From assembly GCA_902588965.1 (NCBI GenBank), contig CACIRD010000003.1:62001-126000 (forward strand): a stretch of 64,000 nt of DNA, read 5' to 3'. The notes below the pieces were generated by a model. The model made no database searches and was not told the origin of the DNA. It saw nothing but the letters and a program-made list of their open reading frames with translations. Source of the DNA: an uncultured Pelagibacteraceae bacterium. Lineage in GTDB: Bacteria; Pseudomonadota; Alphaproteobacteria; Pelagibacterales; Pelagibacteraceae. Shown here in pieces: positions 4,143-9,710 of the stretch (position 1 is its first letter; every line of letters begins with the position of its first letter). Made by a program: the position numbers and the translations under genes.

Positions 4143-5340
4143 ATACTAGGGTTGCATTAGTGCCACCAAATCCAAAACTATTCGACATAATAGAATTAAT
4201 TTTTACATCCTTCTCTACAGAAGTTACTATCGGATACTTTTTAGCCTCTTCATCCATATCAACAATATTAACAGAAGCAGCAATAAAATTATTTTTCATC
4301 ATTATTAAACTATATATAGCCTCGTGAACTGAAGTTGCGCCAAGAGAGTGTCCCGCAAGTGATTTTGTTGAGCTAATTTTGGGTTTATAATCTTTAAACA
4401 CTTTTCCAACAGCATTTAACTCTGTAATATCACCTACTGGAGTCGATGTTCCATGGGTATTTATATAATCAATTTTATTTTTTGCTGTGCTAAGAGCCAT
4501 ATTCATGCATCTAACCGCTCCTTCTCCAGATGGAGCTACCATATCATATCCATCAGATGTAGCACCATATCCAGTTATTTCGGCATAAATTTTAGCCCCT
4601 CTCGCTTTTGCATGCTCGTACTCTTCTAATACTACTACTCCCCCACCGCCTGATATAACGAATCCATCTCGTGTTTTATCATAAGGTCTCGATGCTTTTT
4701 CTGGGGTATCGTTATATTTTGATGATAAAGCTGTCATGGCATCAAACATTGCTGTCATTGCAAAGTGAACTTCGTCACTTCCTCCAGCAAAAATAATCTT
4801 CTGCTTTCCTAATTGAATTAATTCCATTGCATTTCCTATACAATGACCACTTGTTGCACACGCTGAACTTATTGTGTAATTAACACCTTTAATTTTAAAC
4901 GGTACGGCTAAGGTTGCTGATGCTGTACTAGACATTGTTCTTGGAACAACAAATGGACCCATTCTTTTAGGACTCTTATCTCTAGTTTTATCTGCAGCTA
5001 AAATTACGTTTTCGATAGAAGGTCCTCCTGAACCCATTATCATACCAGTCGAAATATTACTTATATCTTTTTCCTCTAATCCTGAATCTTTTACAGCTTC
5101 AGCCATAGAAATATAGTTATAAGCAGATCCTGGGCCCATAAATCTTATAAACTTTCTATCAACATGATCTTCCAACTTTATTTTTGGTTTCCCATGAACA
5201 TTACTTTTTAAATTATACTCTTTGTATTCCTCTGAGAAAGTGATGCCTGATTTTGAGTTTAACAAAGATTTGTAAACTTCTTCTTTATTATTACCTAAAC
5301 ATGAAACTATACCAATGCCTGTTACAACAACTCTTTTCAT
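4129..5340 (-). CDS. fabB: Beta-ketoacyl-ACP synthase I
   Basis: KAS signature [40 protein letters not shown]; located between fabA and fabI. Confidence 0.93.
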
Positions 5341-5840
5341 TATTGAAATAATCCAACTTTTAGATTTTCTGCACTATAAATTTTTTTCCCATCTGCTAAC
5401 AATATGCCATTAGCCAGACCTACTGTTGTTCCTTCTTTAATTAAAATTCTTTTCATATCTATCTCATAAACTGCCTTCTTGACATTTTTTAGAACCTCAC
5501 CCGTAAACTTAACACTATTTACTCCTAATGCTCGACCTCTACCAGGGTTTCCAAGCCAACCAAGATAAAATCCAACTAATTGCCACATGGCGTCTAACCC
5601 AAGACATCCTGGCATCACAGGATCCTCTTGAAAGTGACAATCAAAAAACCAAAGATTATCTTTTATATCTAACTCAGCTTTTATTAACCCTTTTTTAAAA
5701 ATTCCTTTATTCTCACTAATTTCTGTTATTCTGTCAAACATTAGCATTGGTGGCAAAGGAAGTTTTGCATTTCCAGGCCCAAAAAGACCACCTTTTCCAC
5801 AATTAATTAGTTCGTCATAATTGTAGGAATTCTTTTTCAT
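5340..5840 (-). CDS. fabA: 3-hydroxydecanoyl-ACP dehydratase/isomerase
   Basis: [31 protein letters not shown] is the FabA signature. Start chosen at [12 protein letters not shown] (5840); the longer ORF (to 5915) reads through the intergenic region. Confidence 0.94.
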
Positions 5841-5889: not shown

Positions 5890-5906
5890 TTTAGAATTAT
5901 TATAAA
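5890..5906. promoter_or_regulatory. ICE-like inverted repeat in the irr/fabA divergent intergenic region
   Basis: TTTAGAA-TTA-TTATAAA, 7-3-7 geometry, one mismatch to a perfect repeat and to the published Irr iron-control-element form TTTAGAA-N3-TTCTAAA. Confidence 0.6.
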
Positions 5907-5914
5907 TAACATCA

Positions 5915-6331
5915 ATGAATAAACAAGATTTTATCAATAAATTAAGAAATTCTGGCTTAAGGCCAACAAAACAAAGAATAAAGATCTGCGAAACTTTGTT
6001 CAATACTGAAAAAACTTTCCATTTTACAGTGAACGATCTTGCAAAAATTATCCATAAAAACTTCAGTGAGAATATTTCTTTAGCAACTGTTTACAATACC
6101 ATTCATGCATTTAAAAAAAAAGGCTATCTAAAAGAAATTTCTTTGGGAAATGACAAGAGTTATTTTGATACTAATGTAAGTTCTCACCATCATTTCTTCG
6201 ATACTAAAACTAACGAATTAATTGATATCGATTTAAATAAAATTGAGCTTAAAAATATTCCGAGTCCTCCAAAAGGAAAATCAATAAAAGATATTGATGT
6301 AGTTATAAATATTGAGAACGATTCTCAATAG
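5915..6331 (+). CDS. irr: Fur-family iron response regulator Irr
   Basis: [90 protein letters not shown] motif and conserved C-terminal pattern of Irr; divergent from fabA as in other alphaproteobacteria. Confidence 0.88.
6310..6330. promoter_or_regulatory. Perfect 9-3-9 inverted repeat (ICE-like core) at the 3' end of irr
   Basis: TATTGAGAA-CGA-TTCTCAATA; core TTGAGAA-N3-TTCTCAA at 6312-6328. No T-run follows on the + strand, so not a canonical terminator for irr. Confidence 0.5.
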
Positions 6332-6348
6332 TTTATAAACATTCTAAA
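6332..6348. promoter_or_regulatory. ICE-like inverted repeat upstream of katG
   Basis: TTTATAA-ACA-TTCTAAA, 7-3-7, one mismatch; lies 4 bp upstream of a -35-like TTGACT (6353-6358). Confidence 0.6.
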
Positions 6349-6352
6349 CTAC

Positions 6353-6380
6353 TTGACTTACACTTTAGACTCATTATAAA
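6353..6380 (+). promoter_or_regulatory. Putative sigma70-type promoter of katG
   Basis: TTGACT (6353-6358), 16 bp spacer, TATAAA (6375-6380). Confidence 0.5.
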
Positions 6381-6389
6381 GTACTTTAA

Positions 6390-8618
<2,229 letters not shown>

Positions 8619-8916: not shown

Positions 8917-8971
8917 TTTTTTGCGAATGATTACTATTAATTCAAAAAACTAAGTATTTAAATTTTTTTTT

Positions 8972-8986
8972 TGATAACAATTATCA
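8972..8986. promoter_or_regulatory. Fur-box-like palindrome
   Basis: TGATAAC-A-ATTATCA, 7-1-7, one mismatch to the classic TGATAAT-N-ATTATCA; 51 bp upstream of the 59-aa CxxC ORF. Confidence 0.5.
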
Positions 8987-9037
8987 TTAGCAAAAAAAAA
9001 AGTTGAAAAAAAAAGATTTTAAAACTATTTCTATAAC

Positions 9038-9217
9038 ATGGAAGTTCAAAATTATAATTGTAAAAAATGTGGTTTAACAATTGCATCTACTTGTTCCAAG
9101 TGTGATAGAACTGTCGACGTTAAAGTTTTAGATGATGGATGTATTGTTCAAATTACAAAGTGCGGAGATTGTGCCAATATACCAGTTATAAAAGATGTTT
9201 GCTCGCAACAAAAATAA
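9038..9217 (+). CDS. Small zinc-ribbon-like protein (59 aa)
   Basis: Not in ORF track. MEVQNYNCKKCGLTIASTCSKCDRTVDVKVLDDGCIVQITKCGDCANIPVIKDVCSQQK*; three CxxC pairs. Confidence 0.7.
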   Translation: MEVQNYNCKKCGLTIASTCSKCDRTVDVKVLDDGCIVQITKCGDCANIPVIKDVCSQQK

Positions 9218-9218
9218 T

Positions 9219-9710
9219 TCATTCTTTTATTTTAGAAAGTATATTTTCAGCAGCAGAAATTTCGCAGTGTGACGTCTCTTTTTCTGTTCCAAGATAAACT
9301 ACTTTAGCATCTTTTAGAATCATACTATAACGTTTTGATCTAATCCCTAGTCCCCTATCGCTTTTATCTACTTCAGCACCAAGCTTTTTAGTAAATTCTG
9401 CAAATGGATCTGCCAGCATAAGTATTTCATTTTTGGCATTATTTATTTTACCCCATGCATCCATAACAAATGGATCATTTACACAGATACAAATTATATT
9501 ATCAATTCCAACTAATCTAAAATTTTCAAGGTGGTTAATATATCCTGGTAAATGTTTTTGAGAGCAAGTTGAAGTAAATGCACCTGGCATGCCTATTAAA
9601 ATAACTTTTTTATTTTTTAAATAATTAAATATACTTTTTTTTACAGGCTCGTTATCAATCAACTGAAATACATCAGCATCAGGTACTTTATCGTTTATAA
9701 ATAAATTCAT
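9219..9710 (-). CDS. Peroxiredoxin (Prx5-type, redoxin family)
   Basis: KVILIGMPGAFTSTCSQKHLPGYI and VNDPFVMDAWGK. Confidence 0.92.
   Translation of the reverse strand: MNLFINDKVPDADVFQLIDNEPVKKSIFNYLKNKKVILIGMPGAFTSTCSQKHLPGYINHLENFRLVGIDNIICICVNDPFVMDAWGKINNAKNEILMLADPFAEFTKKLGAEVDKSDRGLGIRSKRYSMILKDAKVVYLGTEKETSHCEISAAENILSKIKE

Follow-up and report, generated by a model that had tools for sequence, protein, structure and literature searches.

A predicted Irr operator type is conserved ahead of alternative peroxidase genes in SAR11 bacteria

Across SAR11 bacteria (Pelagibacterales), a regulator-operator unit has been kept while its effector gene is either katG or rubrerythrin (rbr). The regulator is an Irr-type protein and the candidate operators are ICE-type inverted repeats. 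Judging from the comparative evidence set out below, these repeats are probably Irr operators, and Irr would act through them as a local repressor of the adjacent peroxidase gene, released by peroxide and/or by a change in iron or heme (a probability of roughly three in four for this reading as a whole). Pelagibacter was at first seen as an organism without catalase that relies on others for peroxide removal (PMC3033426); later surveys placed katG in offshore SAR11 genera and in South Pacific Gyre clades (PMC12636525, PMC11366302). The open literature searched (subscription papers aside) held no account of irr-katG or irr-rbr control in SAR11, or of katG control.

The irr locus and its inverted repeats

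The window, i.e., the whole 64,000-nucleotide stretch that was analyzed, is a piece of a SAR11 genome with a GC content of 28%; in the locus search, the nearest relatives bearing a name were uncultured Pelagibacteraceae. The features of the locus are listed below in window coordinates; the promoter hexamers and the ribosome-binding site were identified by sequence.

5340 to 5840, minus strand: fabA, 3-hydroxydecanoyl-ACP dehydratase (TIGR01749, 257 bits, cut-off 238)
5890 to 5906, plus strand: Box A, TTTAGAATTATTATAAA, predicted ICE-type operator in the fabA/irr spacer (13/14 ICE letters, 6/7 arm pairs)
5915 to 6331, plus strand: irr, Fur-superfamily regulator of the Irr/IrrA type, 138 aa (NCBIfam IrrA, FUR Pfam)
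6312 to 6328, plus strand: Box B0, ICE-like core TTGAGAACGATTCTCAA (12/14 ICE letters, 7/7 arm pairs)
6332 to 6348, plus strand: Box B1, TTTATAAACATTCTAAA, predicted operator ending 4 bp ahead of the katG -35 (13/14 ICE letters, 6/7 arm pairs)
6353 to 6358, plus strand: TTGACT, -35-like hexamer of katG
6364 to 6380, plus strand: Box B2, TTTAGACTCATTATAAA, predicted operator over the -35/-10 spacer and the -10 of katG (12/14 ICE letters)
6375 to 6380, plus strand: TATAAA, -10-like hexamer of katG, within Box B2
6397 to 6401, plus strand: AGGAG, katG ribosome-binding site, 9 nt ahead of the ATG at 6411
6411 to 8618, plus strand: katG, bifunctional catalase-peroxidase, presumed regulated effector (TIGR00198, 1145 bits, cut-off 770)

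fabA, the first gene of fabA-fabB-fabI, is divergent from irr; its start was placed at the ATG at 5840, and a TTG further upstream in the mechanical open reading frame was not adopted. irr and katG lie on the same strand (+) with a gap of 79 bp, and the order ahead of katG is B0 (6312), B1 (6332), TTGACT, and B2 (6364, with TATAAA inside), B1 and B2 being spaced by 32 bp. Box B0 overlaps the last codons of irr at the 3′ end of the gene. The sequence-only reading had described Boxes A, B0, and B1, with a perfect 9-3-9 structure for the middle repeat, centers at 6320 and 6340 for the latter two (20 bp apart), and a TTGACT-16-TATAAA promoter for katG. A check of the sequence bore out each of these, including the 9-3-9 arms at 6310 to 6330 (TATTGAGAA-CGA-TTCTCAATA) and the hexamers at 6353 to 6358 and 6375 to 6380. 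Its inventory was correct for these three repeats and overlooked a fourth, TTTAGACTCATTATAAA at 6364 to 6380, which contains the -10.

The right arm of Box A includes a TATAAA (5901 to 5906) that may be the irr -10, 8 nt ahead of the irr ATG. If TATAAA within a box serves as -10, near-leaderless mRNAs would result, for irr here (5901 to 5915) and for katG in many relatives; the candidates, in which the box ends about 8 nt from the ATG, include the katG starts of loci L044 and L051 to L059.

A redoxin/AhpC-TSA family protein is encoded at 9219 to 9710 on the minus strand, so that further peroxide-handling genes lie close to the locus. This gene is convergent with that of a small Cys-rich protein of 59 aa (about 9038 to 9217), which begins MEVQNYNCKKCGLTIASTCSKC, has no Pfam match, and is preceded by a Fur-box-like palindrome, TTGATAACAATTATCAT, at 8971 to 8987. 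The same 59-aa Cys-rich gene is again found downstream of GATAAT-rich sequence in a relative (G138, L188).

Taken singly, ICE-like words do not exceed the chance frequency in either the window or the genome. The window contains nine with at most two mismatches against 5.7 expected, a number reached by 13 of 100 shuffles, and it holds 320 7-3-7 repeats with six or seven matching arm pairs. Across the genome, the loose ICE consensus was not enriched (95 per strand compared to 145 for the reversed control), and a broad Irr regulon is therefore unsupported by that scan. Clustering is unusual, since four of the nine window matches fall within 491 bp. The window observation by itself is insufficient for the claim, and it is conservation across relatives that settles the non-chance status of the repeats.

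Conservation of the repeats across SAR11

The spacers of 179 irr loci from the order Pelagibacterales were excised and scored, a box being defined as a match to at least 12 of the 14 ICE letters; the chance rate from dinucleotide-type resampling was 0.7 to 1.6% of spacers. Boxes were present in 121 of 124 irr-katG spacers, in 49 of 54 irr spacers without katG (90.7%; mostly rbr), and in 107 of the 161 distinct spacers between fabA and irr (0.7% expected), counts that do not represent independent events as the genomes are related. Identity by column was 67 to 100% within the boxes and mostly 28 to 60% in the flanks, and the most frequent form was TTTAGAATTATTATAAA for the boxes at irr and TTTAGAATCATTATAAA for those at katG (B2 position). 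The ICE form at an Irr-linked promoter (TTTAGAA-N3-TTCTAAA or a near variant) thus occurs in the window boxes and is conserved order-wide. The sequence-only reading had regarded loss of the repeats from relatives with the same gene order as contrary evidence; in these relatives the boxes are kept.

When an irr-katG spacer contains two boxes, their usual distance is 30 to 33 bp, mostly 32 bp, a distance of 20 bp being seen eight times. Box B0 was found in 6 of 123 irr-katG loci, all from the clade of the window, and is an accessory, lineage-specific element; the conserved tandem is B1/B2 (6332/6364). The tandem control of katG initially proposed therefore holds as regards conservation of boxes at katG, while the 20-bp pair 6312/6332 was rejected as its key feature because it is confined to the window's clade. 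TTGAC occupies a fixed position relative to the boxes, 10 to 12 nt before or 3 to 4 nt after: there were 85 instances of TTGAC 10 to 12 nt ahead of a box in irr-katG spacers, and placement just upstream of TTGAC, as for B1, recurred in 45 katG boxes and 39 rbr boxes. In some clades (L043, L046), the sole strong box ends just ahead of the -35.

Several clades have a weak box between fabA and irr, and the score was below 12/14 in 54 of the 161 spacers, including all those sampled from family f2, despite which the box 3′ of irr reaches the full 14/14 in some f2 loci. Loss of strength on the fabA side with retention of the box on the peroxidase side indicates that what is conserved is control of the gene after irr, whereas autoregulation depends on the lineage. 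Autoregulation of irr, another proposal of the initial reading, is accordingly backed by a conserved Box A-type site in 107 of the 161 spacers and does not extend to all SAR11. From the position of the box, Irr control of fabA is possible.

Association of the repeats with irr

No Irr match rose above background in genera g2, g3, and g4. Their KatG belongs to a different, distantly related lineage (53 to 57% identical) encoded at other positions (L189 to L198), and the box is absent both at this distant katG and at fabA. Where fabA and katG adjoin without an intervening irr, a box of at least 12 letters was present in three of eight junctions versus 121 of 124 with irr (Fisher 1e-5), the whole-genome search for irr covering G088, G280, and G389 of these eight. 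Irr-less genomes are thus mostly without boxes. That they never carry them is not fully true, since G389, an irr-less genome about 83% complete, retains a 13/14 box. The strict motif TTTAGAAYNATTMTAA was sought in 24 genomes that carry irr, which gave 33 sites at the irr locus and a further 11 outside it; those of the latter that were inspected were mostly intragenic and chance-like, with the exception of one upstream of fabA in G004. In this genome (L330), a full 14/14 ICE palindrome and a GATAAT-type element lie upstream of fabA, the irr-katG unit being located elsewhere.

Exchange of katG and rubrerythrin

The gene 3′ of irr was katG in 125, rbr in 50, and neither in 4 of the 179 distinct loci. 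katG as the target of Irr, the view taken from the window, applies to the window itself and not always elsewhere, as many relatives have rubrerythrin instead. No genome of the order carried both katG (235 of 398) and this rbr (132 of 398), against 78 co-occurrences expected, an exclusion whose significance is inflated by shared ancestry. About nine in ten of the sampled SAR11 genomes thus hold exactly one of the two peroxidases, and the data suggest that, where irr is present, the peroxidase adjoins it under one conserved operator type.

Changes between the katG and rbr states numbered at least 6 on the irr tree and 17 on the fabA tree, both quick FastTree runs, a difference hinting that irr and its effector move together with respect to fabA. 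In G004, a member of family f2 whose relatives have irr-rbr, an f1-type irr is found with katG and no adjoining fabA; the irr-katG pair therefore appears to have moved as a unit.

A 203-aa hydroxylase-like protein (aspartyl/asparaginyl, by eye) is encoded after katG in some SAR11 (L239, L188). The window has no such gene between katG and the DUF2061 gene, and in G157, from which katG is gone, it follows irr and a box.

The Irr protein

The best NCBIfam match of the irr product is IrrA, slightly below cut-off (141.6 bits, cut-off 150) and, with the Irr model (127.5 bits, cut-off 170), far above the PerR (64) and Fur (41) models; the FUR Pfam score is 77.7 bits. A divergent fabA stands beside irr in most SAR11 loci, and S. 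meliloti pSymB and R. pomeroyi are annotated alike. The gene is hence best placed with the Irr type, as originally identified, with the fabA-divergent arrangement of Sinorhizobium and Ruegeria.

In an alignment to B. subtilis PerR, the regulatory-site residues H37, D85, H91, H93, and D104 (the first being H36 in SAR11 Irr) were invariant in 172 of 172 SAR11 sequences, all of which also have the HHH metal/heme cluster. The structural zinc CxxC was absent in all 172, and PerR identity was rejected on this basis; the N-terminal Cys-Pro (CP) heme-regulatory motif (HRM) was found in none of them, indicating that SAR11 Irr is not of the HRM-bearing subtype. Two distant Irr proteins, from S. meliloti and R. 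pomeroyi, have the same kind of PerR-site residues, which therefore represent an Irr-wide trait rather than one that arose in SAR11. At the last site position, where Irr has Asp, the Fur encoded in this genome carries Glu; according to Parent et al. in 2013 (cited in PMC4866751), a Glu-to-Asp change reportedly renders Fur as H2O2 sensitive as PerR. Overall, the sequences portray a protein that is Irr by descent and whose mode of control may be comparable to that of the PerR-peroxidase or Irr-ccpA systems. The HHH cluster of B. japonicum Irr binds heme, and H2O2 activation takes place at the His cluster, the CP motif being the main site of heme/H2O2 generation (PMC4700492); SAR11 Irr, in contrast, keeps the His cluster only.

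DISCUSSION

From the sites, their conservation and promoter placement, their link to the presence of irr, the katG/rbr either/or pattern, and the conserved regulator residues, all established here, we infer the Irr binding, repression, and signal steps of the following scheme. Irr on B1 and B2, whose 32-bp spacing amounts to about three helical turns, would flank the -35 and cover the -10 of katG, and it is from this placement that repression is argued. Box A lies over the probable irr promoter and would confer autoregulation in the window's lineage, and in many lineages overall. H2O2, via Fe-catalyzed oxidation of a PerR-like iron site, and/or a shift in iron or heme would then release Irr and turn the peroxidase on. 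In the clades whose sole strong box stops just short of the -35, Irr could equally well be an activator.

The least secure part of this mechanism is the release signal. A peroxide signal would be in keeping with the kind of enzyme targeted and with the PerR-type site. By analogy, it would also match the H2O2 phenotype that irr mutants show in other bacteria: in R. sphaeroides, the promoters of ccpA and mbfA are bound by Irr, and the irr mutant is H2O2 resistant (PMC3413700). The HHH cluster, and the very name of Irr, would speak for an iron/heme signal. Iron limitation raises rbr (SAR11_0399) 1.57-fold in P. ubique HTCC1062, where the irr transcript follows stationary phase (PMC2864753). SAR11_0399 is presumably the irr-linked rbr, an assignment made here from the sampled loci and not stated in PMC2864753. 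Its rise at iron limitation fits an iron-dependent repressor. A TGATAAT Fur-type element is present near the irr 3′ end/rbr promoter in 47 of 50 rbr loci versus 3 of 123 katG loci, and Fur may therefore explain the rise at low iron. The rbr loci of family f2 (L315 to L325) have a clean TTGATAATNNTTATCAA-type palindrome ahead of the ICE box. The sequences suggest joint control of rubrerythrin by Fur and Irr in this family.

SAR11 Irr may itself be a direct H2O2 sensor, with PerR-like chemistry on an Irr scaffold that lacks structural zinc and the CP motif, a regulon reduced to about one adjacent promoter, and katG and rbr exchangeable behind it. We advance this tentatively, at somewhat less than even odds. 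An explanation that we consider unlikely, if still a serious competitor, is that Irr is a rhizobial-type iron/heme sensor only, repressing KatG, itself a heme enzyme, under scarcity of heme or iron, with no direct part for peroxide. The protein is indeed nearest IrrA, the HHH cluster, through which B. japonicum Irr binds heme (PMC4700492), is universal in the SAR11 set, and KatG requires heme. However, the CP motif is absent from the same 172 sequences, and rubrerythrin, a non-heme iron enzyme, occupies the same slot. The 1.57-fold increase of SAR11_0399 rbr at low iron also goes in the opposite direction, although the Fur-type element could cause it.

It is improbable that the boxes are Fur sites to which the adjacent irr is incidental. 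Such an origin would draw on the recognition code common to the Fur family, the TGATAAT element that 47 of 50 rbr loci carry close to the 3′ end of irr, and the Fur encoded in this genome, but the irr-less genera g2 to g4 have no TTTAGAA-type boxes at katG or fabA even though a Fur-like protein is still found in g2 and g4. The GATAAT-type element is, moreover, separate from the boxes and present in only 3 of 123 katG loci, and Fur was rejected as the main reading on these two grounds. Functionless, chance AT-rich palindromes, as might be surmised from the 28% GC, the near-expectation window total, and the lack of genome-wide motif enrichment, have a negligible probability given position-specific conservation over hundreds of diverged loci, which refutes chance for A, B1, and B2, while B0 may still be one.

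The locus pattern points to a minimal, swappable peroxide-defense switch. Under the preferred reading of local repression by Irr, this would be a small testable circuit through which iron and peroxide are connected in a marine lineage of high abundance, as well as a natural experiment in which a regulator keeps its operator while the target enzyme is swapped. If SAR11 Irr is in addition a direct H2O2 sensor, peroxide defense in these highly abundant ocean bacteria would be a one-slot, plug-in module.

The Irr/ICE systems of rhizobia and Rhodobacter are alike in the Irr-type protein, the location of its gene beside fabA(B,I), the ICE-like operators, and the link to peroxide-handling genes (ccpA and mbfA in R. 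sphaeroides, where katE is not bound by Irr; PMC3413700). They differ in that the SAR11 candidate operators are on the adjoining katG or rbr promoter, with the peroxidase directly after irr in nearly all SAR11 loci and a strict motif close to a single-locus regulon. Irr-box predictions are said to derive from Rodionov et al. in 2006; in S. meliloti and R. pomeroyi, the fabA/irr spacer contained no ICE. Mycobacterial furA is also a Fur-family gene directly upstream of katG, which it regulates, and differs in regulator subfamily, in operator, and in having no rbr alternative. PerR, the Fur-family repressor of Bacillus, Clostridium, Leptospira, and others, has operators on katA/katG/rbr and on its own gene. 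SAR11 Irr resembles it in the H37/D85/H91/H93/D104 site, in boxes on peroxidase promoters and on its own gene, and in the form of the operator, TTAGAATNATTATAA, which is similar to the PerR box, TTATAATNATTATAA. Unlike PerR, the SAR11 protein is without the structural zinc cysteines and scores as Irr, and its arrangement is single-target and next-door, with an either/or effector.
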